Positions 233 through 13,808 of a stretch of DNA of 64,000 nucleotides are shown here, piece after piece. Origin of the DNA: Yoonia sp. (lineage in GTDB: Bacteria; Pseudomonadota; Alphaproteobacteria; Rhodobacterales; Rhodobacteraceae); contig NZ_JAGYJK010000006.1 of the NCBI RefSeq assembly GCF_018402175.1, positions 1 through 64,000 of the forward strand, in the 5' to 3' direction. Below the pieces are notes generated by a model, which was not told the origin of the DNA, did not search any database, and saw nothing but the letters and a program-made list of their open reading frames with translations. Every line of letters starts with the position of its first letter. Position 1 is the first letter of the stretch. Made by a program: the position numbers and the translations under genes.

Positions 233-425
233 ATCCTCCAGCTTTAAGCAGAGAATTACGCCCAAGAGCTTTATTCAACGGATCCCAACCCTAAGCAAGG
301 CCATGGGCATCTTCTACTCAAGACTGAGTCGGGCGGGTGATCGCAACTGTACTGTTAGCTCAACCCTTGAAATACCATCGAGGGCAGCCATAGTCCTAGC
401 AATAATATAACAAAGGAGTCCGAAG
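233..425. other. AT-rich leader without a recognisable gene
   Basis: This stretch lies between the IS3 fragment and the putative restriction gene. No protein family could be recognised in any frame. Its AT content is clearly higher than in the phosphonate region, and it presumably holds the promoter of the next gene. An AAAGGAG Shine-Dalgarno sequence sits at 412-418. Confidence 0.5.
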
Positions 426-1607
426 TTGTCGTTCTCAAATATCAGAACTGCGGTATGTGCGGCTGTGCCCTCGCTACACAATGAGGAATATTGGAGCACC
501 AAGGAAGCTGCATTGATAATATCATATACCAGTAGAAATACGGGTGACCTCCACAAAACTGTGAGAGATGCAAATAATTACAATCCCCGGTCACACAAAA
601 CCCACATCGATATTACCTCTGGAAATGATGTGCCCATTGGGCTGAGCCCCGTACTTGATTTCTTGGACGCTCGACCCGAGCTCGGCGATCGGGAATTCGC
701 GGCACGCCTAAACAGACAGAACCTAATCTCCATAGGTGGTTTCGCACCATTCACTTCGGATTGGCAAAATTATAAAATTCATATAGCCCCATTTAGCCGC
801 AACGATAACACTAACCCCAGTGTGCAGCTACTGCAATATGGTGATCTGCTCCCATTACGTGAGACTCTTACTGTTGGTCAATCAATGATCCTTATCAAGG
901 ATATAAGTGGAATATTTGATGTTTTTGGTGTAAATACAGATAACGATATCCAACAGATGTTAGCAGGCAAAACAAAGAGAATGTTTCTAAACAATCATTC
1001 CGTTGTTCCGGGACCCGAACACGCTCTAGAAGCTAACACTGCTATTGCTGAGGAAAAGGGAACGAAACAGAAGCCTTCGAAAACGAGTGCAAAACCGTCT
1101 CGTGTCCAAGATCCACTCATTAGGAGATTGATAGAAAACCGTGGTATGCAAGTAGTCCGAGAGTACTATACTAACATAGGATGTATTGTAACAGACGTCC
1201 ACACAGCTGAAAAGGCAATTGCTGCTGGACTTGAACCATATCCTGGGTTTGACCAACAAGTTCGAAATGCAGAAGCTCTTGTTGCAAATTGTGAAACCAA
1301 AGCTACCACCACCAATGGTGCTTATGTTGAGCTAACTCTGAACGAATTAAAGAATTTAATTGATGATAAATTTGCCCAGCTTTGCGTCGTTCATTCAATT
1401 GTTCTAATTAGTGGGTCCGAAGGGGATACGGTCGCGACTGGTGGAACACTGTTGCAGCTTAAAGTTCAAAGGAGCGAAGAACTGAAGCAAGCCATCCAAC
1501 ACCTTGCCAAGATAAATGAAAATCTAAAGTCGATTGATGCGACAATTTCAGCATCGTCCATAAAGGTATTGGTTTCGACAAACACAGATGCTCTAGTAAG
1601 GCTCTAG
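426..1607 (+). CDS. Putative restriction endonuclease (PD-(D/E)XK-like, DUF3883/Mrr-type C-terminal domain)
   Basis: This is a 393-residue protein starting at TTG with AAAGGAG seven bases upstream. Residues 1-200 match nothing I recognise. Residues 205-228 form a charged Lys/Ser linker. Residues 229-393 resemble the nuclease fold of DUF3883/Mrr-like proteins: a GFD motif with Asp276, then Cys-Glu290-Thr-Lys292 followed by VELTLNEL, fitting the D...ExK catalytic arrangement. It is convergent with two cytosine-5 methyltransferase genes and ends 9 bp from the first, the usual setting of a type II restriction gene. The endonuclease role is inferred from context plus this motif; the recognition sequence cannot be told. 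AT-rich codon use marks it as acquired. A different DNA-binding or defence role remains possible. Confidence 0.6.
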   Translation: MSFSNIRTAVCAAVPSLHNEEYWSTKEAALIISYTSRNTGDLHKTVRDANNYNPRSHKTHIDITSGNDVPIGLSPVLDFLDARPELGDREFAARLNRQNLISIGGFAPFTSDWQNYKIHIAPFSRNDNTNPSVQLLQYGDLLPLRETLTVGQSMILIKDISGIFDVFGVNTDNDIQQMLAGKTKRMFLNNHSVVPGPEHALEANTAIAEEKGTKQKPSKTSAKPSRVQDPLIRRLIENRGMQVVREYYTNIGCIVTDVHTAEKAIAAGLEPYPGFDQQVRNAEALVANCETKATTTNGAYVELTLNELKNLIDDKFAQLCVVHSIVLISGSEGDTVATGGTLLQLKVQRSEELKQAIQHLAKINENLKSIDATISASSIKVLVSTNTDALVRL

Positions 1608-1616
1608 AAAAGATGC

Positions 1617-2654
1617 TTAAGCATACTCTTCGAGGAGATTTGAAATGGCTGCTTGAGCTAGGGGAACTGGCACCGCATTGCCGATCAGTCGGTAGGTTGG
1701 AGTGTACCTGCATTCTAGATTTAAGCGAAGCTGTTCAAAGTGGTCTGGGAATCCTTGAAGACGAAATCCTTCTAAAGGAGAAATTCGCCTGACGATATCG
1801 TTCTCGCATGCATCACGGCTGTGATCAGGGTTCGGCTTTTCTCCAAAGATGTAACGTTCGGAAAAATAGTTATCTTGGTTAGCACGATGCCACTTCGCCA
1901 TTGTAGCAGTGATTGGGCGGGAGATAGCTCGGTCTATTCGAATGTCGCCTTGCCACTTTATATTGCGCCTTAAAACAGTTTTTCTTGTCTTAAACGGAAT
2001 GATGTGATCTTTGTCTAGGCTGCGCTCTAGAAGATGCCAAGTTGTTGGGTACAAGCCGTTATTTCTAGATGTACGCTGAAGTGTAGGGAGTGTCCCCTTC
2101 TTCTTAGTGTCTTTTCTTACGCCACAGAAAAAAATCCTACGACGCTGCTGAGGAACACCAAAATCACTCGCACAAAGGTCGAGGATGTGGGTGTGGTAGC
2201 CAGCAAGTTCAAGTTCACCAACAATCTTGGCAAGGGTTTCTCCCTTTCCAAGATTTCGTATTTTCTGTACATTTTCGAGTACGAATAGTTTTGGCCGATA
2301 ACTTCGAAGTATGTCACAGATTTTGAATATTAATGTGCCGCGTGGGTCATCAAGTCCTAGACGATGGCCAATATTGGCAAACGGCTGACAAGGGAATCCA
2401 GCTAGCAAGAGGTCGAAATCTGGAAGATCAATTAGCTGATCGTCGGTCGGAAAGGTTAAGTCAGTTCTTATGTTGTTAACATCGTCTATGAATAGCTCGT
2501 CAGAACCGAAAGAGCGCTGGTAAAATTTCTTGCATAGCGGATCGGAGTCAGACGATGCGACTGGGATCAATCCGCCGAAATCGTGATTTAAAAGCCCTGC
2601 TGCAAGGCGAAACCCACCGATTCCACAAAATAGATCAACATACCTTATGGTCAT
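1617..2654 (-). CDS. DNA (cytosine-5-)-methyltransferase, first of a pair
   Basis: This 345-residue enzyme transfers a methyl group from S-adenosylmethionine to C5 of cytosine. Motifs appear in order: motif I DLFCGIGGF (residues 7-15), motif IV GFPCQPF with catalytic Cys89, motif VI LENV (126-129), motif VIII QQRRRIFF (169-176), a short target-recognition region, and motif X LIGNAVPVP near the C-terminus. The start chosen is the ATG at 2654, because it begins right before motif I and overlaps the stop of the upstream methyltransferase as ATGA. The longer reading to 2783 only adds out-of-frame sequence of that gene. It is translationally coupled to its partner and convergent with the putative nuclease, so the three probably form one restriction-modification system. 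Confidence 0.93.
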   Translation of the reverse strand: MTIRYVDLFCGIGGFRLAAGLLNHDFGGLIPVASSDSDPLCKKFYQRSFGSDELFIDDVNNIRTDLTFPTDDQLIDLPDFDLLLAGFPCQPFANIGHRLGLDDPRGTLIFKICDILRSYRPKLFVLENVQKIRNLGKGETLAKIVGELELAGYHTHILDLCASDFGVPQQRRRIFFCGVRKDTKKKGTLPTLQRTSRNNGLYPTTWHLLERSLDKDHIIPFKTRKTVLRRNIKWQGDIRIDRAISRPITATMAKWHRANQDNYFSERYIFGEKPNPDHSRDACENDIVRRISPLEGFRLQGFPDHFEQLRLNLECRYTPTYRLIGNAVPVPLAQAAISNLLEEYA

Positions 2655-4087
2655 ATGATGCCAAACTCCTCGATAGTCGCACGGATAGCTCGGCCTACTG
2701 CTCGAGCGACGAGCGGAGAGACTGCATTCCCAATCTGCCGGTACCACTCGTTCGGATAGCCTAAGAATAGGTAGTCGTCGCAAAAGCCTTGGACTCGAGC
2801 GGCCTCTCGAGGGGTGAGGCCGCGTGCCTGATTCGGGTGAATATACATGTGACAGTCGTAGTACATGTGAGCAGTTATCGTCTTACAAGGCTTCCGTGGG
2901 TCCAGCTTGTAGAATTTGTCTTTAAATATGCCGTCTCGTGATTTGTATGGATTGATATCGTGAATAGATGCCGCCGATGAATCTTCACCGGGCGCAAGTC
3001 TTCTATATATCTCGATGTCGCGTTGGTTATTGTATTTTGCTCTGTGGTTAAAAAGAAAGAGCGGCACCTGTCCGTTATTCAGACAAGTGGAGTAGGGTGT
3101 TAGAGCCATCGGATATGACGAAATAGTATATCCAAACCTTTCGTTCTCCAATTCTGTTCTATTTCTAATATTTTTGGCCTCCAGCACAGGGAGATCCATA
3201 ATCGCATCGGCAAGTGTGAAGGTGGGAATCGTCGACTTTTCGTTTAGCAGCCGATCTTGGAAATATTTAAAGATCATACTGAATTTCTCGTGGTTTCGAG
3301 TTTTTACGGCTAAAATAAAAACACGTTCTCTATTTTGAGGAGCTCCAAAGTCAAGTGCGTTAAGTTTGACCGCCGCACAAGTAAAGCCGTGATCAACAAA
3401 ATCATTTTGGAGTTTTGGCAATCCAGACATCATCAGTGGAACATTCTCCATCAAAGCTACTTGCGCTTCGCAATGGTCAATTGCTGAAAGAAACCGTCTG
3501 TAAAGCTGGTTCCTTGGGTCGTCGCTTAGACGCTGTCTATTTGCATTGCTAAACCCTTGGCATGGAGGACCACCTACAACCAATGGTGCGGTAGGTAGTC
3601 CTTTTAGAACCACGTCTTGCTCAATTGAGGCATGAATGATCTGCTCCGCAGCTAAGTGCGGTCTATTCACCCCATAGGTCTGCAGTGCAGCATTATCACT
3701 GTCTAGTGCGCAGATCGGCATAAAGCCAGAGTCTTCCAGTCCGATCGAGAGACCTCCAGCCCCCGCAAATAGGTCAATAAACGGAATTCCAATTTTCGAT
3801 TCTTGTAATATTTGTTTTCGTCCATGATCGCAGAAACGACCAATTGGGCATTTAAAACATGTGGGCTTCGTGTCGTGACAGTAGAGCTTGCCAATCGCCC
3901 GTAGTTTCAATATCCGATCACGACTTGAAAGTTGTGACGTGCCAAGTCCACCTATGCGGCTTGCTACTCGTCTTTCATCCTCGGCTGATCCGTCGACTGC
4001 GGAAAAGCGTGCGACGTCGAGGATACGCATGCTGAGGGCTTCCCAAGGCTTGCTAGTCTTTTTTACGATTTCACAAGCAGCATTCAA
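2651..4087 (-). CDS. DNA (cytosine-5-)-methyltransferase with an N-terminal Nth-type [4Fe-4S] motif
   Basis: The protein has 478 residues. Methyltransferase motifs run from residue 104: DLFAGAGGLS (motif I), GGPPCQGFSN with catalytic Cys176, MENV (213-216), QNRERVFI (251-258) and a C-terminal QIGNAV. The ~100 residues before motif I are unusual. They contain Cys70, Cys77, Cys80 and Cys86 spaced C-X6-C-X2-C-X5-C, the iron-sulfur loop of endonuclease III/MutY glycosylases, preceded by a segment like that family's C-terminal third. The catalytic Lys/Asp part of a glycosylase is missing. The start is TTG at 4087 with GGAGGGG just upstream; no other start exists before the in-frame stop at 4178-4180. 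Two C5 methyltransferases next to one nuclease often methylate the two strands of an asymmetric site (inference). Confidence 0.88.
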   Translation of the reverse strand: MNAACEIVKKTSKPWEALSMRILDVARFSAVDGSAEDERRVASRIGGLGTSQLSSRDRILKLRAIGKLYCHDTKPTCFKCPIGRFCDHGRKQILQESKIGIPFIDLFAGAGGLSIGLEDSGFMPICALDSDNAALQTYGVNRPHLAAEQIIHASIEQDVVLKGLPTAPLVVGGPPCQGFSNANRQRLSDDPRNQLYRRFLSAIDHCEAQVALMENVPLMMSGLPKLQNDFVDHGFTCAAVKLNALDFGAPQNRERVFILAVKTRNHEKFSMIFKYFQDRLLNEKSTIPTFTLADAIMDLPVLEAKNIRNRTELENERFGYTISSYPMALTPYSTCLNNGQVPLFLFNHRAKYNNQRDIEIYRRLAPGEDSSAASIHDINPYKSRDGIFKDKFYKLDPRKPCKTITAHMYYDCHMYIHPNQARGLTPREAARVQGFCDDYLFLGYPNEWYRQIGNAVSPLVARAVGRAIRATIEEFGII

Positions 4088-4411
4088 AGCTCCCCTCCAA
4101 ATTAACGGATCAAACTCTACGCTAGATGTTGAGACTCTAGCTGTGTTCCCTACCGGTTGTAGATGTATAGTTGGACGTCACAGTTTGCACAAGATGGGTT
4201 TCAGAGCCATCCAATAGTTAAAATATGACATATGTCTTGGCGAGCAGGCCACTTGTACAATATCAATTGGCGACACTTGACCTCGACTCGGGAGCTAGTG
4301 TTCAGCGCCTGAAATAGGATTCCCAAAGCCGCTCAGCCTTGGCATGAATGGCGGATGAGACGCACCGACATCTGCCTTTATCTTGGCTTCGCCGACCGCT
4401 CCGAGCTTTAA
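4088..4411. other. Gene-free junction between the methyltransferase and an IS630 remnant
   Basis: This stretch holds no recognisable gene. On the minus strand the methyltransferase frame stays open for 30 more codons (to the stop at 4178-4180) without a usable start codon, which hints that the 5' part of a longer fused gene was lost. The right part merges into the degraded left end of an IS630-type element. Confidence 0.45.
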
Positions 4412-4681
4412 GCTCTACTGACCAACCGCAACACGCCGCGCAAACTCACCTAGCGGGCGGGTATTGTGCTTGCGACAAGTGATGGCGTGGGGACGGTTGA
4501 GATCATGCGGCGGACGGGCATGTCGAAGCCGACGGTTTGGCGCTGGCAGGAACGGTATCTCGATGAAGGTGTGCCGGGGCTCAAGCGCGACAAGACGCGG
4601 CCCTCGCATGTTCCGCCGCTTCCTAGAGAGATCCGGTTAAAGGTGATCGCTAAGACTGTGCAGGAGACGACGCGCAATGCC
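4412..4681 (+). pseudogene. IS630-family transposase, N-terminal remnant
   Basis: The frame reads ALLTNRNTPRKLT, then a TAG codon at 4451-4453 where the family has Trp, then a helix-turn-helix segment with VEIMRRTGMSKPTVWRW and a linker ending near IAKTVQETT. This is the DNA-binding N-terminus of IS630-type transposases common in Rhodobacteraceae. The catalytic DDE domain is absent: similarity stops at about 4681, where unrelated sequence is joined. The nonsense codon and the truncation show it is dead. Confidence 0.8.
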
Positions 4682-4723
4682 GATCTGGGCGAAGGCTCTC
4701 TGCGCTCAATTAGGAGAATGCTA

Positions 4724-4891
4724 ATGACCAATGTTGATGAACGCCTAGCAGTCGGGTCAGGACATATGGAGGCCGGCGTGCTTGCCGAGCCGATTGCCGC
4801 TTACGCGGCTCACCTGTCTGGCCTCGGTTACACCGCGCTGACGATCAAGGGATATATTCGCGCAAGCAAATCCTATTCAATAACGGGATAG
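4724..4891 (+). pseudogene. Tyrosine recombinase/integrase, N-terminal fragment
   Basis: An ATG with AGGAG seven bases upstream opens a 55-codon frame containing EPIAAYAAHLSGLGYTALT. This resembles the start of the SAM-like core-binding domain of tyrosine site-specific recombinases, of the kind found in tandem integrase modules. The catalytic domain is missing: the frame breaks near 4870 and runs into the 3' end of the opposing HEPN gene. The family call rests on a short stretch and is tentative. Confidence 0.5.
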
Positions 4892-5538
4892 AACGGCTTT
4901 CCCCAGTTTTCATTGGGATTGTCCATCATGATGTCGATGAGCACTGGCATCAGGAAACCAAGGATCTCGGCGCCGTCCCGAACCTGGGATCGGTTCACGC
5001 TGCTGTTCCAAGTTGATCCACCGTGAACAAGCTGATTCCGCAACACATATAGCCGGTCAAAGACGAAGCTAAGAACGCGCGCGCTGTCGCCTGCTTGGAA
5101 GGACTGCGCGAAGGATCGGGCCGAGGTCTTGAAGCGATCCTCCCAATCCTCGAACCCGTCAATCCCATTGTGGTATTGCCAGAAGGGATTGAAGACAAAA
5201 CGGTTCTCCATAAGCATCCGAACTGGGCCGGAGAACCGCTGCCACAGCGCTTTGTAGATAAGGCGTTCTTTATCAAGTGCGACCAGCCGCCTGAAATAGT
5301 CTACAAAGGCTGCGCGTTCCCCTAAGGCTACCGCTTGAAACTCGCGTTCGTCCGCATAGGCAGCATTGAACGCAATCCAAAGGAAAATGAAGCGCGCATC
5401 ATCATCCTCGGCGCACGCCTCTGCACGACCGATCCAACTGATGGCTCGATGAGCGCGCAGTCCCATCGTTTTGGGGAAGCCTTCGCGAATGGCGCGTTGT
5501 TTTGCTTTCAAGGCCGCATGGTCGAGACCGTTTTTCAT
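4873..5538 (-). CDS. HEPN-domain protein
   Basis: This is a 221-residue soluble alpha-helical protein. Near the C-terminus it has RNQLVHGG (Arg167-X4-His172), the R-X4-6-H signature of HEPN domains, which in many toxin and defence proteins forms a ribonuclease site. The upstream FIFLWIAFNAAYA helix is typical of Apea-like HEPN proteins. The start at 5538 was chosen because AGGA lies eight bases upstream; a longer reading to 5601 would enter the preceding gene remnant. It follows the decayed WYL-domain regulator by 22 bp on the same strand, so the two were probably one operon. The gene looks intact although its neighbours are fragments. Nuclease activity is not proven by sequence; some HEPN proteins are non-catalytic. 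Confidence 0.75.
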   Translation of the reverse strand: MKNGLDHAALKAKQRAIREGFPKTMGLRAHRAISWIGRAEACAEDDDARFIFLWIAFNAAYADEREFQAVALGERAAFVDYFRRLVALDKERLIYKALWQRFSGPVRMLMENRFVFNPFWQYHNGIDGFEDWEDRFKTSARSFAQSFQAGDSARVLSFVFDRLYVLRNQLVHGGSTWNSSVNRSQVRDGAEILGFLMPVLIDIMMDNPNENWGKPFYPVIE

Positions 5539-5560
5539 AATTAATTCCTGTTCAACATCG

Positions 5561-6310
5561 TCATGGCAAAGCGTCGAAATCTGACCTTTGGTGACCTGCA
5601 ACCAATTCGCGCAAGCCTGTGGGCGCTGAGACTTCCACTTTGTCGCCCCATTGAAAAAATTGCCATGCTATTTCTAGCCAACCCGCTGCCACGAACGTGC
5701 CGATCAGGCTGCCGTCGCCCTGCAGCTCGATGGTTTGGGTTGGGTGAAAACGGAATTCGGCTGTGTGCTCTGCGGCAGCAGGTGTGAAGCGCTATACGGC
5801 TTTGCCGTATCGTTTGTGATTGTGATAGACACCAAAGGCCATCGCCATATAGTTCGCGAGGGAGAAACTCGGAGCCAATTGGAAGCTTTTGTTCAGAACC
5901 TGTGCTTCTTGAATGCGGTTCATGCGGAAGTTGAGGATTTCTTTGCCACGGGCAGGTTGCCTTACCACAAGATAGCTGCGGTGTCCCAGCAGCATGCCAT
6001 GCGGCTCGATCACGCGCGGCTCAGCGCCCTTTGCTCAATCGCAAACGCGCAATCGGAACGGGCCACGCAGCGCTTCCATGACCGCATCTGTCACGGCAGG
6101 CTTAAGTCCTACGGTAGGGCCGGGTCACGCGACCCGGCCAGATGCAGCCAGCACGACATCTGCATCGGCTTCCGACCGAAGTGCGTTTCTAGGGTTCAAG
6201 CGCACCAAGAGCACATCGCGTAGATCCTACAGTGCGCGTGAATGTCGTAGCCGACCTTTGTCGCAAGCAGTACGTGCGGCGATTTCCAGAGCTTCAATCG
6301 CCGTCTGCGG
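5561..6310 (-). pseudogene. WYL-domain transcriptional regulator, decayed
   Basis: Reading the minus strand in one frame recovers most of a WYL-domain regulator: PGPTVGLKPAVTDAVMEAL, EPRVIEPHGMLLGHRSYLVV, EILNFRMNRIQEAQVL, then FRFHPTQTIELQGDGSL and VAAGWLEIAWQFFQWGD. The frame is broken by a TAG at 5792-5794 (where Trp is expected), TGA at 6035-6037, TGA at 6125-6127 and a TAG further upstream. A one-base loss near 5638 precedes the last ~20 codons, which end at the TGA at 5561-5563. The N-terminal helix-turn-helix part is lost where the IS21 end begins, near 6310. Several nonsense codons make this a true pseudogene, not a sequencing slip. WYL proteins often repress defence genes, and its HEPN neighbour fits that. 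Confidence 0.8.
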
Positions 6311-6482: not shown

Positions 6483-7163
6483 ATGCCGAGACAGAAGCGA
6501 GCGAGGCGCACGACTGTGCAAGACATACGAGCGATACTGCGACTGACGCATGAACAGGGGCTTTCGGCACGTGAGGTTGCCGCGCGTCTGAAGCTCAGTA
6601 AAACGACGGTGGCGACTTATTTGAACCGGGTCCGTGAGGCGGGGCTGAACTGCTGGCCGCTGCCCAAGGGGCGGGATGACGATACCACGCTGAAGCAGGT
6701 TCTGTTCCAGCGCGTGGGGCGTCCACCCCGGGATCTGACCGAGCCCGATTGGCCGAAGATGGCAGCAGAGATGAAGCGCAAGGGCGTGACGCTTTTGCTG
6801 CTTTGGGAGGAATATCGGGCGGGTCACCCAGACGGCTATGGCTACACGTGGTTTTGCGAGCGTTACAGGGAGTTCGAGAGCCGGGTCAGTCCTCGTTACC
6901 GTAACCGCCATGAGGCTGGTGCGGTGATGCAAACCGATTACGCGGGCCACACCATTCCAGTCACTGATCCGGCGACCGGCCGCGAGCACCGCGCCCAAAT
7001 CTTCGTCGCGGTGCTTGGTGCATCCAATTACACGTTCGCCTGGGCCAGCCTGAGTCAGAAGCTACCTGACTGGATCGACGCCCAGGTTTCCAATGATCTG
7101 GACAGCACTTGTTATCTATACTGTTTCGCTCATCCGCCAGTCGCGTCGCAAACGCCACCCTGA
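6483..7163 (+). pseudogene. istA: IS21-family transposase IstA, truncated
   Basis: The first ~200 residues are a good IstA: an N-terminal helix-turn-helix (LSAREVAARLKLSKTTV), the EEYRAGHPDGYGYTWFCERY segment, and the start of the DDE core (VMQTDYAGHTIPV, with the first catalytic Asp). Full IstA is about 500 residues. Similarity ends after LPDWIDAQV near 7086, and the last 25 codons are unrelated. The rest of istA, istB and the right terminal repeats are missing. The element was cut by a later rearrangement that brought in an IS5 fragment. Confidence 0.9.
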
Positions 7164-7509: not shown

Positions 7510-8655
7510 TCAGAACACCCGTCGTCCCGCACTATAGGTCTGTTGCACCATTGCGGTATCGTCCAGCAGGCTGAACACGACCAGATCGGCCCGCTGTCCG
7601 GGGGCCAGCCTGCCACGGTCCTGCAATCCGGCGGCCTGTGCGGGGGCGGTGGTGACCGTCGCCATCCCGCGCGCCAGATCGTCCCAGATCAGCCCCAGCC
7701 GCACCGCCGCCAGCAGCAGCGATGCAGGCACATAATCGGATGACAGAATATCCAGCCGGTCGCGCGCCGCCAGATCAGAGGCCGCCACATTGCCCGAATG
7801 CGACCCGCCCCGGATCAGGTTGGGCGCGCCCATGATCGTGGCGATCCCATGCCCGTGGCACGCATCAGCCGCCGCCAGGCTGGTGGGAAATTCCGCCAGC
7901 GTCACGCCATGGCCATGGCTGGTTGCGACCTGTGCTTGGGTCGTGTCGTCATGGCTGGCCAGGACCGCGCCAAGCCGGTTTGCCGCCGCGACCGTCGCCG
8001 CCTCATGCGCCGTGCCGTATTGCGCCTGCAACCCGTAAAGGAAATCGACATAGCCTGCGAATTCATCCGCGCTCAGGTTGTTCTTGCCGCGCACATAGGC
8101 CTCGAACTTGGTGATATCGGCAAATTGGCGTTGCCCCGGCGTGTGATCCATCATGGAAATGATGCCGATCCCGTCGCTGTCGCTGAATTCATCCAGCTCT
8201 GCGATCAGGGTTTCGGAACAGATTTCAGCCCGCAGATGCAGGTGGTGGCTGATCCGCAGATGGCCTGCCGCGCGCATCGCCAAAATCTCGTCCGCCATCT
8301 GGCGCGCATATTTGCCATAGCGTTTGCCGCCGCCCGATGTGATCGACCCGACCCTGATCGCGTCATAGACGGTGGTGATCCCGCAGCCCGCCAATTCACG
8401 GTCATGCGCCATGATCGCGGCACGATAGGGCCAGTCGACCTTTGGCCGTGGCGACAGGTGCCGTTCCAGATTGTCGGTATGCAATTCCACCAGACCGGGG
8501 GCCAGATAATCGCCCCCCAGATCGACCGCGCCTTTGGGCACGTCCGCCCCTTGGGCCATATCTGCGATAACGCCATCCTTGATGGTCAGTGATCCGGTCA
8601 CGACCTCGGTTTCCAAGATCAGGCGGGCGTTGGCAAGAATGATAGGCTCTGTCAT
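7510..8655 (-). CDS. phnM: PhnM, alpha-D-ribose 1-methylphosphonate 5-triphosphate diphosphatase
   Basis: This 381-residue amidohydrolase-fold enzyme removes pyrophosphate from the triribosyl phosphonate intermediate to give ribose 1-methylphosphonate 5-phosphate, the substrate of C-P lyase. The metal-binding start of the barrel (LVELHTDNLERHLSPRP), the DHTPGQRQ segment and the late SDYVPASLL are characteristic. Length matches the family (about 380). It is divergent from the DUF1045 gene, with only 34 bp between the two start codons, so their promoters must be intertwined. A second PhnM-like gene lies at 15124-16311. The start ATG at 8655 opens the family's usual N-terminus. Confidence 0.93.
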   Translation of the reverse strand: MTEPIILANARLILETEVVTGSLTIKDGVIADMAQGADVPKGAVDLGGDYLAPGLVELHTDNLERHLSPRPKVDWPYRAAIMAHDRELAGCGITTVYDAIRVGSITSGGGKRYGKYARQMADEILAMRAAGHLRISHHLHLRAEICSETLIAELDEFSDSDGIGIISMMDHTPGQRQFADITKFEAYVRGKNNLSADEFAGYVDFLYGLQAQYGTAHEAATVAAANRLGAVLASHDDTTQAQVATSHGHGVTLAEFPTSLAAADACHGHGIATIMGAPNLIRGGSHSGNVAASDLAARDRLDILSSDYVPASLLLAAVRLGLIWDDLARGMATVTTAPAQAAGLQDRGRLAPGQRADLVVFSLLDDTAMVQQTYSAGRRVF

Positions 8656-8689
8656 GTCGGTGTCACGATACTTTTGCTAAAGGATTGGC

Positions 8690-9364
8690 ATGTTCGAAAG
8701 ATTTGCAATTTTTTACACAGTGACCGGCCCGCTGGCCGATTTCGGCGCGGCTTGGCTGGGCTGGGACAATGCGGCAGGCCGCGTGGTGCCGCATCCCGAT
8801 ATCGCGGGGATCGACGTGGCACAGGTCACGGCGACACCGCGCAAATACGGGCTGCATGCCACGATGAAAGCCCCGTTCCGCCTGTCCGCCGACAGCGGCC
8901 CTGCGGCGCTGCAACGGGCTGTGGCGGATTTCGCCACCCGTCATGCGGCGGTGGATATCGGACACCTGGCCTTGGGGCAGGATCACGGCTTTGTCGCCTT
9001 GCGCCCTGTCGCGCCGCCCGCGGCCCTGCACGATCTGGAACGCGCCATCGTGACCGAACTTGACGATCACCGCGCGCCGCTGACCGAGGCCGACATCGCC
9101 CGCCGCCGCAAGGCCCCGCTGACGCGCAGGCAGGACCAGCAGATGCTGGACTGGGGCTATCCTTATATCTTTGACGATTTCCATCTGCATCTGACGCTGA
9201 GTGGTCAATTGCCCGATGCGCAGGCGGCACGGGTCGTGGCGGGGTTGCAGCCGCTGGTTGCGCCGCTGATTGCGGACCCTTGCATCATCGACGCTCTCAC
9301 GCTGATGGGGCAGGATGGGGCGGGCCTGTTTCACCAGATCCACCGCTACACCTTGACCGGATAA
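8690..9364 (+). CDS. DUF1045 phosphonate-metabolism protein (2H phosphoesterase fold)
   Basis: This 224-residue protein belongs to a family found almost only beside C-P lyase genes. Two His-X-Thr-type motifs of 2H phosphoesterases are visible: HATMKAPF near residue 62 and HLHLTLSG near residue 168. The enzyme class opens or makes cyclic nucleotide phosphate bonds. No phnP (5-phosphoribosyl 1,2-cyclic phosphate phosphodiesterase) is seen in the window, so this protein may perform that last step; that is inference. AAAGGA lies eight bases before the ATG. Its 3' end overlaps the end of convergent phnN by 19 bp. Confidence 0.85.
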   Translation: MFERFAIFYTVTGPLADFGAAWLGWDNAAGRVVPHPDIAGIDVAQVTATPRKYGLHATMKAPFRLSADSGPAALQRAVADFATRHAAVDIGHLALGQDHGFVALRPVAPPAALHDLERAIVTELDDHRAPLTEADIARRRKAPLTRRQDQQMLDWGYPYIFDDFHLHLTLSGQLPDAQAARVVAGLQPLVAPLIADPCIIDALTLMGQDGAGLFHQIHRYTLTG

Positions 9365-9888
9365 AGCAGGCGCAGCACCGCCCCAAGGGTGGTGTCCAGA
9401 TCGGCGCTGTTGTCGATGCTCACCGCCTCTATCCCCGCAGGCAAGGCATGATCCGCACGATCAAGCCTGCGCGCGATGTCATCCGCCGCCTCGCGCCCGC
9501 GCGCGGCAAGGCGGGCTGCCAGCACATCGCGCCGCGCGGTCAATTGGATCACCATGAACGGGTCAAACTGCGCCTTGGCCGCAGGCAAGGCCGCGCGCGA
9601 CAGGTTCGCCAGCATATCCCGCCCCGCCGCCAGATCATCCAGCACCGTCGCGGGGATGGCGTAATGCAGGCCATGCGCAGGCCAATGCAGCGCGAAATCG
9701 CCCTGCGCCGCGCGGGCGTGAAACGCATCCGCGGTCACACCGTCAAAATCCTCGCCCCCTGCATCGCTGGGGCGCGTGATCACACGGCGCACCAAGCGAA
9801 GGCGCGGATCACGGGCGGCCAGCGCGGCCATTACCGAATCCTTGCCGACACCGGACGCCCCGACAATGGCGATGAACCGGCCTGTCAT
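9346..9888 (-). CDS. phnN: PhnN, ribose 1,5-bisphosphate phosphokinase
   Basis: This 180-residue guanylate-kinase-like P-loop enzyme phosphorylates ribose 1,5-bisphosphate to PRPP, recycling the sugar left by C-P lyase. The Walker A motif GASGVGKDS is at residues 9-17 and VITRPSDAGGEDFDGVT matches the substrate-binding segment. The ATG at 9888 is preferred because it overlaps the phnL stop as ATGA and gives the normal N-terminus MTGRFIAIVGASG; the reading to 9936 only extends into phnL. It is the last gene of the phnGHIJKLN run. Confidence 0.93.
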   Translation of the reverse strand: MTGRFIAIVGASGVGKDSVMAALAARDPRLRLVRRVITRPSDAGGEDFDGVTADAFHARAAQGDFALHWPAHGLHYAIPATVLDDLAAGRDMLANLSRAALPAAKAQFDPFMVIQLTARRDVLAARLAARGREAADDIARRLDRADHALPAGIEAVSIDNSADLDTTLGAVLRLLYPVKV

Positions 9889-10568
9889 GCGGCAAGACCG
9901 GGGGTAAAGCCGGTCACATCCACCTGCCGGTCGCAAAGCGCCTCGCGCGCGGCATGGTCGTGGAAAATCCCGATGATCGCGGCACCGCGCGCCTTGGCCT
10001 CTTGCACCATCGCCAGCACGGTGGCGCGGTTGGTGGGGTCAAGGCTCGCCGTGGGTTCATCCAGCAACAGCGCGGGATAGGCAAAGGCGAATCCCCGCGC
10101 GATATTGACCCGCTGCTGTTCGCCACCCGAAAAGGTCGTGGGGCTAAGCCCCCACAGCCGTTCGGGGATATTCAGCCGTGCCAGCAGAGTGGCGGCCTGC
10201 GCGCGGGCCTCATCCGCCCCCGTGCCGGTCAGCAGCAAAGGTTCAGCCACCACGTCGATCGTCGGCACCCGTGGCACCACCCGCAAAAACTGGCTGACAT
10301 AGCCCAGCGTGCGGCGGCGCAGCGCGATCACCTCGCGCGGGGCGGCGCTGGCGACATCGGTATCACCCACCATGATCCGGCCCGATGCTGTCAGGTAATT
10401 GCCATAGATCATCCGCATCAGCGTGGATTTGCCCGCCCCCGATGCGCCGACCAAGGCCACACATTCGCCCGCAGCCACTTGCAGGCTTGCCCCCGCCATC
10501 ACGGGAATGACGGTGCTGCCCTGATTATGCAGGGTAAAGCTTTTCGACACGTTTTCGACAGAGATCAT
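9885..10568 (-). CDS. phnL: PhnL, C-P lyase system ABC-type ATPase
   Basis: This 227-residue ABC ATPase has Walker A GASGAGKST, signature FSGGEQQRVNIARG and Walker B LLLDEPTASLD. PhnL belongs to the C-P lyase core, not to an importer: with PhnGHI and PhnM it is needed for attaching ATP ribose to the phosphonate, probably as a dissociable partner of the core complex. It starts two bases after the phnK stop and overlaps phnN by four bases, showing tight coupling in the order K-L-N. Confidence 0.93.
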   Translation of the reverse strand: MISVENVSKSFTLHNQGSTVIPVMAGASLQVAAGECVALVGASGAGKSTLMRMIYGNYLTASGRIMVGDTDVASAAPREVIALRRRTLGYVSQFLRVVPRVPTIDVVAEPLLLTGTGADEARAQAATLLARLNIPERLWGLSPTTFSGGEQQRVNIARGFAFAYPALLLDEPTASLDPTNRATVLAMVQEAKARGAAIIGIFHDHAAREALCDRQVDVTGFTPGLAA

Positions 10569-10570
10569 CT

Positions 10571-11341
10571 TTACACCTGCAAGACAGAGGACACGAGGAG
10601 TTGGGTATAGCCGTGCTGCGGATCATCCAGCACCTGATCGGTCAGGCCGGTTTCCACGACATGGCCGTCTTTCATTACCATCAGCCGGTCGGCCAACAGC
10701 CGCACGACGGCCAGATCATGGGTGACGATAATCGCACTCAGCCCCATGTCGCGCACCAACCCGCGCAAAAGGTCCAGCAAACGCGCCTGCACCGACACAT
10801 CCAGCCCCCCTGTCGGTTCATCCATGAACACCAGACGCGGCCCCGTGACCAGATTGCGCGCGATCTGCAAACGTTGCTGCATCCCGCCGGAAAAGGCGGT
10901 GGGGCGGTCGTCGATCCGGTCTTGGGTAATCTCGACCCGGCCCAACCAATCAATCGCCTGTTCGCGGATGTCGCCGTAATGGCGCGCATTCACGGCCATC
11001 AGGCGTTCACCCACATTGCCGCCCGCGCTGACATTCATGCGCAGCCCGTCGCGGGCATGTTGATGCACAAAGGCCCAGTCGGTACGCCCCAGCATCCGGC
11101 GTTCGGGTTCGGACATGGTGACGGTGTCGCGCAACCCGTCACTGCGGGTGGCGAAACGCACAGCACCTTGATCCGGCCTCAGATGGCCTGCCAGACAGTT
11201 CAGCAAGGTGGATTTACCCGACCCGCTTTCGCCGACGATGCCCATGACCTCGCCGGGGTAAAGATCAAAGGACACATCGGTGCAGCCGATGCGCGCGCCG
11301 TAATATTTGGCAAGGTTTTCGACCTGCAACAGGGGGGTCAT
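10571..11341 (-). CDS. phnK: PhnK, C-P lyase core-complex ABC-type ATPase
   Basis: This 256-residue ABC ATPase has Walker A GESGSGKST, signature FSGGMQQRLQIARNL and Walker B LVFMDEPTGGLD. PhnK docks on the PhnGHIJ core and is needed for phosphonate growth in Escherichia coli. The ATG at 11341 overlaps the phnJ stop as ATGA and gives the expected N-terminus MTPLLQVENL; the longer form to 11368 reads through phnJ. It resembles oligopeptide-importer ATPases, but the operon position between phnJ and phnL is decisive. Confidence 0.93.
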   Translation of the reverse strand: MTPLLQVENLAKYYGARIGCTDVSFDLYPGEVMGIVGESGSGKSTLLNCLAGHLRPDQGAVRFATRSDGLRDTVTMSEPERRMLGRTDWAFVHQHARDGLRMNVSAGGNVGERLMAVNARHYGDIREQAIDWLGRVEITQDRIDDRPTAFSGGMQQRLQIARNLVTGPRLVFMDEPTGGLDVSVQARLLDLLRGLVRDMGLSAIIVTHDLAVVRLLADRLMVMKDGHVVETGLTDQVLDDPQHGYTQLLVSSVLQV

Positions 11342-12168
11342 GCGGCATCCTCCACGCGGGTGGCACAATAATCGGTGTCCGAGCAGATGAACATACGCCC
11401 GCCCGCGTCATCGGTGATCAATTCATCCAGATAGCTGCTGGTCGATCCGCAAAGCGCGCAGGCGTGGTCAGCCTTGGTCGGCTGGAACGGATAATCGTCG
11501 AAATCCAGACTGACGACCTTTGTATAGGGCGGCAGCGCATAGATCCGCTGTTCGCGGCCCGCGCCGAACAGCTGGATCGCGGCCATGTCCAGTTTCGGAT
11601 TATCGAATTTCGGGATCGGGGACGGGTCCATGACATAGCGCCCTTCGACCTTGACCGGATAGGCATAGGCGGTGGCGATATCGCCGTGCTGGCTAATATC
11701 CTCGTAAAGTTTCACATGCATCAGACCGTAATCTTCCAAAGCATGCATCTTGCGGGTTTCCACCTCGGAAGGTTCCAGAAAGCGCAGGGGTTCGGGGATC
11801 GGCACCTGATAGACGATGATCTGCCCCTCGCGCAGTGCCTGTTCGGGAATCCGGTGGCGGGTCTGGATCACGCTGGCCTCGCCCGTTTTCTCGGTCACGG
11901 CGACACCGGCGGTGCGCTGGAAAAACCGCCGGATCGACACCGCGTTGGTCGTATCATCGGCGCCTTGGTCGATGACTTTGAGCGTATCATCCGGCGTCAG
12001 CACGGCGGCTGACACCTGCACGCCGCCGGTGCCCCAGCCATAAGGCATCGGCATTTCGCGGCTGGCGAAAGGCACCTGATAGCCGGGGATGGCAAGTCCT
12101 TTCAGGATCGCGCGGCGGATCATCCGCTTGGTCTGTTCATCCAGATAGGCGAAATTATACTCTTTCAT
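11338..12168 (-). CDS. phnJ: PhnJ, carbon-phosphorus lyase (radical SAM)
   Basis: This 276-residue catalytic subunit cleaves the C-P bond of ribose 1-methylphosphonate 5-phosphate by radical S-adenosylmethionine chemistry, giving methane (from methylphosphonate) and the 1,2-cyclic phosphate. The C-terminal cysteines follow exactly the family pattern C-X2-C-X21-C-X5-C (CALC ... CSDTDYC), which binds the [4Fe-4S] cluster. Length matches the family. The ATG at 12168 (MKEYNFAYLDEQTKRMIRR) overlaps the phnI stop, while the reading to 12297 goes through phnI in another frame. Intact, although upstream phnI carries a frameshift. Confidence 0.95.
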   Translation of the reverse strand: MKEYNFAYLDEQTKRMIRRAILKGLAIPGYQVPFASREMPMPYGWGTGGVQVSAAVLTPDDTLKVIDQGADDTTNAVSIRRFFQRTAGVAVTEKTGEASVIQTRHRIPEQALREGQIIVYQVPIPEPLRFLEPSEVETRKMHALEDYGLMHVKLYEDISQHGDIATAYAYPVKVEGRYVMDPSPIPKFDNPKLDMAAIQLFGAGREQRIYALPPYTKVVSLDFDDYPFQPTKADHACALCGSTSSYLDELITDDAGGRMFICSDTDYCATRVEDAA

Positions 12169-13248
12169 TCCGCAGCCTCCTGCATCTGCTGCGCATCGCG
12201 GCGCAATTTGCGGATCAGTTCCAGTTCGGACTGGAAATCGACGTAATGGGGCAGCTTGATATGCTCCAGAAACCCTGTCGCCTGAATGTTGTCGCAATGG
12301 TACAGCACGAATTCCTCGTCCTGCGCGGGCGCGCCAAGGTAATCCTCGCCCAGTTCGGCCCAGCGCAGCGCGCGGTCCACCAGCGCCATGGAAATCGCCT
12401 TGCGTTCGGTCATGCCGAACACCAGCCCGTAACCGCGGGTGAATTGCGGCGGCTGGGTTTTGGAGCCTTGAAACTGGTTGACGGTTTCACATTCGGTCAG
12501 GGTGATTTCGCCGATCTCGATGCTGAACCCCAGTTCGGGGATATCCATTTCCACCGCGACACGTGCCGATCCGCAATTCCGCAACAAAGGCGTGGTTGCG
12601 CGCATAGCCGCGCTGGGTGGAATAGGCCATGCCAAGGGTGAACCCTTCATCCGCACGGGTCAGCGCCTGCAGGCGCAGCGCGCGGCTGGCGGGCAGTTCC
12701 AGCGGTTCGCGGGTCAGATCGGGGGGCGTCGTATCGCCCGTTGGTTCCGGCTGGATCAGGTTTTCACGGTCCAGAAACCCCATGATATGCGGGGTCGGGC
12801 CGTGCAGCGGGGCGGCTTCGGCCACCTGCCCTGCCTCGCCATCAGCGGCGAGTTTGAAATCCAGCAAACGATGCGTGTAATCAAAGGTCGGCCCCAGAAC
12901 CTGCCCGCCCGGCGCGTCCTTGAAGGTCGCCGACACCCGCCGGTCACAGGCCATCGCCCCTGTATCGACAGGCAACGACCCACCGAAACGCGGCAGGGTG
13001 GTGCGATAGGCGCGGATCAGGAAAATCGCCTCGATCAGATCGCCGCGCGCCTGTTTGATCGCCAAAGCGGCCAGATCGGGATCGTAAAGCGAGCCTTCGG
13101 CCATCACGCGGTTGACGGCCAGCGCCATCTGTTCGCGGATTTGCGCGACGCTCAGTTCCGGCACCGCCGGATCGCCGCGCCGTTCCTCGGCCAGCCAGGC
13201 ATGGGCATTGTCGATGGCCCGTTCGCCACCCTTGACGGCAACATACAT
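12165..13248 (-). pseudogene. phnI: phnI, C-P lyase core subunit, interrupted by a +1 frameshift
   Basis: PhnI is the nucleosidase-like subunit that, with PhnGHL, couples ATP ribose to the phosphonate. The N-terminal ~240 residues (MYVAVKGGERAIDNAHAWLA to HAFVAELRIG) read in one frame. The remainder (VAVEMDIPELGF, ECETVNQFQGSKTQPPQFTR, YHCDNIQATGFLEHIKLPHY) continues in another. The switch is near 12560-12568, and one extra base restores a 360-residue protein of normal length (1084 nt, one more than a multiple of three). The start ATG shares one base with the phnH stop (TGATG). Flanking genes are intact and coupled, so a sequencing error is plausible; if real, the pathway would be blocked. 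Confidence 0.88.
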
Positions 13249-13808
13249 CAGCCGATCCTCGTGCTGCGCGGCAAGGCAGCCAGCCGGTCGCCGCAAGTGA
13301 AGATAAAATCAAGCCCGCGCGGGAAAAGTGCTGCATTGCGCTGGAACGGCGCGATGGCGGGCAAGGACAGATGCGCCTGATCCTTGATCCCCGGTCCACG
13401 CAACACAGCACCCGAATTGGTCAGTTCCGGCAATTCAATGATCAAGGTGGCGGATCTATCGGGATATTCCGATGACCCCAGCGGGAAATCATCCAGCGGC
13501 AGGGCATCCCAATTGCCATAGGCGAAATGCGCCAGACCGGCGGTCACAACAGGTGCTGCGCAGTGAAAGGTGATCCAGTCGCGCAGGGCGGCGGTGTCGT
13601 GGCCCGCGCCCAGAAACAGCGGCGTTTCGGGATCACACAAGGTCAGCAGCGCGACACCGGCGGCGACGGATACCGGCGCAGGCGGCAGAGCGCCCGCCAG
13701 CGTGACAATCGTGCCGGGCTGCGCCATCGCCGTCATGATCGCGCGAAAGGCATGGGCGGCATCCACGGGCGGCGTAGCGAACCCGCCATCTAGCGTCTGG
13801 ATTTGCAT
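13248..13808 (-). CDS. phnH: PhnH, C-P lyase core subunit
   Basis: This 186-residue subunit of the PhnGHIJ complex takes part in forming the ribose 1-phosphonate nucleotide intermediate. Recognisable features are the N-terminal FRAIMTAMAQPGTIVTL, LCDPETPLFL, PLGSSEYPDRSATLI and the C-terminal PRGLDFIFTCGDRLAALPR. The ATG at 13808 shares one base with the phnG stop (TGATG); the TTG one codon earlier is an unlikely start. Length fits the family (about 190). Confidence 0.93.
   Translation of the reverse strand: MQIQTLDGGFATPPVDAAHAFRAIMTAMAQPGTIVTLAGALPPAPVSVAAGVALLTLCDPETPLFLGAGHDTAALRDWITFHCAAPVVTAGLAHFAYGNWDALPLDDFPLGSSEYPDRSATLIIELPELTNSGAVLRGPGIKDQAHLSLPAIAPFQRNAALFPRGLDFIFTCGDRLAALPRSTRIG

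Follow-up and report, generated by a model that had tools for sequence, protein, structure and literature searches.

What might a protein of no evident family do when its gene faces two genes for cytosine-5 (C5) DNA methyltransferases? The question is raised by a locus of three complete genes, R, M2 and M1, near the end of contig NZ_JAGYJK010000006.1 of Yoonia sp. (assembly GCF_018402175.1), of which we analyzed positions 1 to 64,000 (the window). The explanation we prefer, with a probability of about 0.72, is that the three genes form a type II-like restriction-modification locus gained by horizontal transfer, in which M1 and M2 mark both strands of one target, and in which R reads the same target and cuts unmethylated DNA without a motor. 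The first-pass annotation of this DNA had placed the locus at 426-4087, with 393 amino acids (aa) for R and two coupled C5 methyltransferases facing it, and in all of this it was right.

R is convergent with the methyltransferase genes, and nine bases separate its stop from that of M2. M1 and M2 are coupled, the start of M2 overlapping the stop of M1 in ATGA (2651-2654). The maximal open reading frame of M2 has 388 aa, but we give its length as 345 aa because the ATG of this overlap is its start. GGAGG precedes the TTG start of M1 at 4087. Both methyltransferases keep the C5 motifs I, IV (PCQ), VI (ENV), VIII and X (Pfam matches are given in Table 1). Their target-recognition regions differ from each other, which makes an asymmetric target plausible; according to an excerpt of PMC12376442, however, the target is palindromic in an HhaI-like system that also has two C5 methyltransferases. 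When 295 genomes of the family were searched with M1 at E <= 1e-60, only the window's own genome was recovered. A tblastn search of plasmids found a pair from Pedobacter, 54% identical to M1 over 376 columns and 49% identical to M2. This plasmid and one from Treponema carry the same ordered pair followed by an AAA ATPase and, in the Treponema plasmid, also by an annotated LlaJI-family nuclease.

The first 200 residues of R, which had been thought to match no known family, are predicted to be a B3 DNA-reading domain of the LlaJI.R1 type. As a whole, R has no significant match in Pfam, NCBIfam or PADLOC; a single Pfam match, at E 0.1, is far below the cut-off. Since the reader profile A3 found nothing in the PDB, 6c5d included, the link between the reader and 6c5d rests on the predicted structure. 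The same reader is detected by sequence in five related loci (L006, L008, L010, L011 and L003). Another reader profile, A2, matched only the window's own genome among 398 genomes of its phylum. Among 371 genomes of the class of genome G802 it matched two, the genome of L010 itself and G1013, where the reader is joined to an AAA domain; among 365 genomes of the phylum of G803 it matched none, an empty result that shows nothing without a known positive. A fusion of reader and DUF3883 like that in the window did not turn up a second time in these reader-profile searches. Full-length R likewise has no relative in plasmids and phages (tblastn) or in viral contigs, and it matches only its own genome among the 398 of the phylum; none was found in genome contigs, where short exact patterns of one sequence could detect close relatives only. 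The C-terminus alone has no match in plasmids and viral contigs, and searches of the literature showed no B3-DUF3883 restriction enzyme in titles or abstract openings.

The C-terminus of R resembles DUF3883, as had been proposed, and the three residues named for it, Asp276, Glu290 and Lys292, are exactly where they were said to be. Pfam does not report DUF3883 (PF13020) for R, whose score does not reach the gathering cut-off, nor does PF13020 match anything else in the genome, yet a custom profile detects the domain. This profile was built from eight DUF3883 domains encoded in other genomes belonging to the class; the frames that carry them are 966-1224 aa long in seven cases and 323 aa in the eighth. 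The profile gives the C-terminus 27.4 bits, a score that none of 1753 scored shuffles reaches (best 9.9). The score is 18.6 bits without the closest member (best of 1734 shuffles, 9.3) and 13.9 bits without the two closest (best of 1720 shuffles, 10.3); the latter is the cleaner test because these two members had first been picked by a motif search. Used alone, phmmer picks out one such DUF3883 domain, with an E value of 1.5e-4 in a set of 1974 sequences. R also has the D, E-x-K and T-x-N-E motif of DUF3883, and an unaided MAFFT alignment puts D276, E290, K292 and T294 in conserved columns of the DUF3883 group found as partners in related loci, the remaining alignment being poor. Other DUF3883 collections weigh against our interpretation: neither the DUF3883 partners of the related loci (539 of 1457 shuffles score as well) nor a 281-aa DUF3883 type (611 of 1548) detects R, and a pool of 21 DUF3883 domains is marginal (78 of 1494). 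Structure prediction, which the first-pass annotation had recommended, yields the B3 fold for the reader and is weak at the C-terminus in two AlphaFold2 runs (pLDDT, the predicted local distance difference test, 51.3 in the run on this part). The structure matches of this part are uninformative, and the lack of a nuclease among them is no evidence for a different fold. Pfam finds no EcoRII-C or MvaI-type catalytic domain in the C-terminus, whose predicted structure is of low confidence. The sequence thus supports a putative nuclease of the DUF3883, PD-(D/E)XK type; DUF3883 is a presumed group of type II restriction endonucleases in archaea (PMC10609329, excerpt). A DUF3883 neighbor in Rhodovastum (H24, L005) was considered as a direct relative of R and rejected, there being no BLAST match between them.

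If these assignments are correct, M1 and M2, made from one coupled message, would mark the two strands of a single, probably asymmetric target. The N-terminal B3-type domain of R would read this target, and the C-terminal domain, with Asp276, Glu290 and Lys292 as its presumed catalytic residues, would cut DNA that is not methylated there, which may protect the host against phages. R would have the build of LlaJI R1 with the GTPase motor replaced by a nuclease domain; an enzyme of this build should need neither GTP nor R2, and its cuts should fall at the recognition site or close to it. B3 readers are joined to PD-(D/E)XK nucleases in EcoRII and UbaLAI, whose nuclease domains come from other subfamilies than DUF3883, and for which we know of no second methyltransferase. 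With its DUF3883-like tail and two methyltransferases the locus differs from these; it would work like a type II system of their B3-plus-nuclease design.

The comparison with LlaJI is instructive in both directions. In the Lactococcus lactis plasmid pNP40, LlaJI is a type II system with McrBC-like subunits, an R1 that carries a GTPase and a separate R2; R1 binds to a specific site, alongside methyltransferases that provide protection (PMC1459862, excerpt). Two adjacent C5 methyltransferases are found in both systems, as is a B3-fold site reader in the specificity protein, this fold being a predicted one in R. However, R1 of pNP40 carries an McrB-like GTPase (AAA) domain, whereas R has no AAA match in Pfam and its residues after 225 are DUF3883-like. 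Where pNP40 has R1 and a separate R2 nuclease, the locus has one 393-aa protein. Furthermore, the pNP40 methyltransferases align with M1 and M2 in the C5 core only and not in the target-recognition region of M1, and the reader profile does not match the N-terminus of the pNP40 R1. We do not file the locus as LlaJI, because both the GTPase and the methyltransferase recognition regions depart from the definition of that system; nevertheless, the reader and the methyltransferases are kin to the LlaJI-like group. The transfer of GACGC, the target of M1/M2.LlaJI (GACGC/GCGTC), to this locus was considered and rejected, since the pNP40 enzymes share no recognition region with M1; no targets of the closest relatives came to light.

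The closest relatives of M1 among the loci compared come from Clostridia and Pedobacter (L006, L008, L010, L011 and L003) and fall into the same starred group of the M1 tree. Their reader differs from that of R in being joined to an McrB-like AAA domain, and in L006, L008 and L010 a weakly LlaJI-R2-like gene adjoins the reader-AAA gene; PADLOC matches both L006 genes to models of type II restriction endonucleases. A LlaJI-like four-gene operon of Clostridium cellulovorans is a barrier to DNA uptake (PMC11779793, excerpt). The type IIS systems HgaI and MhoVI share with the locus the combination of a single restriction enzyme with two C5 methyltransferases, but R.MhoVI is apparently 520 aa long as against 393 aa for R, a distinction drawn by description only (PMC12376442, excerpt). 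Novelty is limited to the particular reader-DUF3883 fusion. To this extent the locus is the undescribed system it had been called, but its two-methyltransferase arrangement was already known from LlaJI and HgaI.

Is R exceptional in lacking a motor? A search with a profile built on the recognition region of M1 brought in 80 loci on genome contigs, the best of 175 confirmed there, and seven on viral contigs; the two plasmid loci bring the total of related loci to 89. The conservation of this region among them is partly by construction, because the loci were chosen by it. An M2-like second methyltransferase is present in all 89, at <=2.5 kb start to start in 88. The partner includes an AAA domain in 53 (McrB-like AAA in 46, AAA with DUF3883 in six, AAA with HNH in one). 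It is DUF3883 alone in 11, HNH in four (only a 136-aa piece in L051), HNH_2 in two, a PD-(D/E)XK-like protein of 386-aa type in three and the same with a DUF3883 gene in one (L043), a lone reader in five, and of uncharacterized type in three. No partner was found in the remaining seven, some of which are on contigs that end too soon; among these seven, a protein encoded upstream in L018, L019 and L022 ends in a DUF3883-like tail (confirmed by Pfam for L022, not for L018), and L078 has AAA_5.

A quick tree of M1 requires at least 13 partner changes, and its starred branches alone force seven for AAA and four for DUF3883. The tree has 88 rows, 86 of them labeled, after the short rows L067 and L092 were dropped; the labels of L018, L019, L022 and L078 were added by hand, AAA with another effector was counted as AAA, and L043 as PD-(D/E)XK-like. 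With shuffled labels 30.6 changes are needed on average, which suggests that partners are mostly inherited with M1 and that their exchange is repeated but exceptional. The number of changes is a guide, because the tree comes from a short search that gave a long-branch warning. The M1 of the window sits on a long branch in a starred group of nine rows, with seven AAA loci and one whose contig ends too soon. Single-chain partners beside the same type of M1-M2 pair are found in the reader-HNH loci L034, L059 and L088 and in DUF3883 loci (L039, L050, L080 and others); in the six loci named they are 355-398 aa long. The reader-HNH partners, like R, converge on the M genes, but carry HNH where R has DUF3883. 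Among the DUF3883 loci, the partner's N-terminus is only weakly like that of R (P 0.004, probability 9%), and the C-terminal profile is the one that fails to detect R.

Several of these loci show further layouts. Lone B3-type readers of 200 aa directly follow the M2-M1 pair in L013, L015, L016, L021 and L026; Mza/AIPR genes adjoin the one in L013, with matches to MzaD/MzaE models for the genes ahead of the pair. L027, L030, L060, L070 and L084 have the DUF3883 partner gene between M2 and the AAA gene, and thus two effectors in one locus. In L048 and L066 (about 8438-13724) the M1-M2 pair is followed by a protein of 356-362 aa with HNH-like cysteines, without a significant family in L048, and by two more large genes (486/484 and 914 aa). 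A Lactococcus plasmid (L120, 6465-7514, minus strand) has two adjacent C5 methyltransferases opposite a convergent, annotated PLD-domain restriction endonuclease; it is another pair-plus-single-nuclease layout.

The alternatives to a motor-free type II enzyme differ in what they take R to be. R could be the recognition subunit of a larger machine that binds alone and does not cut, with a helicase or an McrB-like motor encoded elsewhere or past the contig end, 425 bases to the left of R. An McrB-like AAA partner does occur in 53 of the 89 related loci, and DUF3883 domains also occur in long reading frames, of some 1000 aa or above. We nevertheless consider a missing partner unlikely: R has no AAA domain and carries a nuclease-like domain of its own, and no AAA gene was detected <=3.5 kb from M1 in the reader-HNH loci L034, L059 and L088 or in loci with the 386-aa PD-(D/E)XK-like type (L014, L017 and L037). 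Searches of the window's genome agree with the motor-free reading. The 1062-aa reader-AAA partner of L006 matched only the reader of R, and an R2-type nuclease query matched nothing, although the latter result shows nothing by itself, as there was no known positive, R2 proteins diverge, and the contig ends where it does. An equally improbable explanation is that the locus is decaying, so that M1 and M2 still methylate and R is inactive or unexpressed. The orphan status of R, the high divergence of its DUF3883 domain and the transposase debris on both sides would fit decay, but all three frames are complete, R and M1 have good ribosome-binding sequences, and the D, E and K residues of R are kept.

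It is, in our view, still less probable that R is a modification-dependent, type IV-like enzyme or a regulator and not a type II nuclease. Among McrB homologs, the reader binds modified DNA or an unmodified site depending on the family (PMC7680126, excerpt), and the HNH tail of the L034 partner resembles a type IV model (E 7.2e-9). However, R lies in one block with two methyltransferases, and its nearest functional relative, LlaJI R1, binds a specific site beside methyltransferases that protect it (PMC1459862, excerpt). A type II-like locus with a motor-free R remains the explanation we prefer.

The composition of the locus points to its acquisition. Its G+C content is 45.4%, as against a mean of 61.7% (standard deviation 1.8) in the rest of the window; the lowest value among 267 equally long stretches of 7001-64000 is 55.2%. 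With pieces of transposases to the left and right (Table 1), the description of an AT-rich block framed by insertion-sequence debris is borne out. The DNA of the left piece (50-232) occurs once in the genome, and the stretch 4300-4900, which holds the HTH piece of the right flank, has three other partial copies there. Beside the locus, 4873-5601 (minus strand) encodes an orphan protein of 242 aa, possibly a toxin or a defense remnant, which contains the stretch RNQLVH and matches HEPN (RiboL-PSP) below threshold (E 0.12). With phosphonate genes (PhnM and a phn-operon protein) at 7510-9364, the DNA to the right of the insertion returns to its typical high G+C content.

Table 1. Positions of the three genes, their domains and the flanking transposase pieces in the window.
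Feature	Position	Strand	Description or evidence
R	426..1607	+	393-aa putative restriction endonuclease, B3 reader and DUF3883-like nuclease; TTG start
Ribosome-binding-like sequence of R, AAAGGAG	AAGGAG at 413..418	+	7 bases before TTG at 426
B3-type DNA-recognition domain of LlaJI.R1 type, R residues 27-190	504..995	+	reader profile and predicted structure
Divergent DUF3883/NOV_C-like domain, R residues ~226-330	1101..1415	+	custom profile, motif
Codons of putative catalytic D276, E290, K292	1251..1301	+	alignment and motif
M2	1617..2654	-	C5-cytosine DNA methyltransferase, 345 aa; PF00145 E 1.5e-64
M1	2651..4087	-	C5-cytosine DNA methyltransferase, 478 aa, TTG start; PF00145 E 3.6e-52
MutY/Nth-type four-cysteine loop, M1 residues 70-86, C-x6-C-x2-C-x5-C	3830..3880	-	profile A6 matches MutY
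Truncated IS3-like transposase piece, 60 aa	50..232	+	HTH_Tnp_1 E 1.8e-17; NCBIfam transpos_IS3 E 5.6e-8, below cut-off
Truncated helix-turn-helix (HTH) transposase-like piece, right flank	4466..4891	+	family-library match
Truncated IS21-family transposase piece	6483..7163	+	E 9.2e-34, below model cut-off

M1 has one further peculiarity, a four-cysteine loop near its N-terminus. Of the 89 related M1s, 25 have the pattern C-x(2,9)-C-x2-C-x5-C in their N-terminal extension, all 25 of them in M2-M1 gene order (in L040 the match appears fortuitous or degenerate); the window is the sole member with M1-M2 order that has it. A profile of 14 of the 26 N-terminal extensions, the window's included (A6), matches MutY structures at E 2.6e-5 and endonuclease III only at E about 1, and the window's M1 alone matches the MutY model at E 0.048. 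In these glycosylases the corresponding stretch is the iron-sulfur loop region. A narrow literature search, which is a thin basis, found no report of an iron-sulfur C5 methyltransferase.

Taken together, these observations allow a wider reading, which we offer tentatively and at less than even odds. The M1-M2 pair would be a fixed "address label": one lineage of B3 readers and an isospecific methyltransferase pair would set the target, and the killing module would have been swapped repeatedly, between a GTPase motor with R2, HNH, PD-(D/E)XK, DUF3883 and Mza/AIPR. The swap in the window would have turned a GTP-dependent, translocating machine into a one-chain enzyme, and M1 would be an iron-sulfur methyltransferase. 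If the cysteine module does hold an iron-sulfur cluster, it would be a new feature for C5 methyltransferases, as far as that one literature search shows.

If our preferred explanation of R is right, a role is found for a B3-type reader that escapes the profile libraries we used, and the reader together with the M1-M2 pair becomes a search pattern for unannotated restriction enzymes. One pair of target-marking methyltransferases would then be served by a GTP-driven motor or by a plain fused nuclease, depending on the bacterium, and the dispensability and contribution of the motor in LlaJI- and McrBC-like systems would become directly testable.

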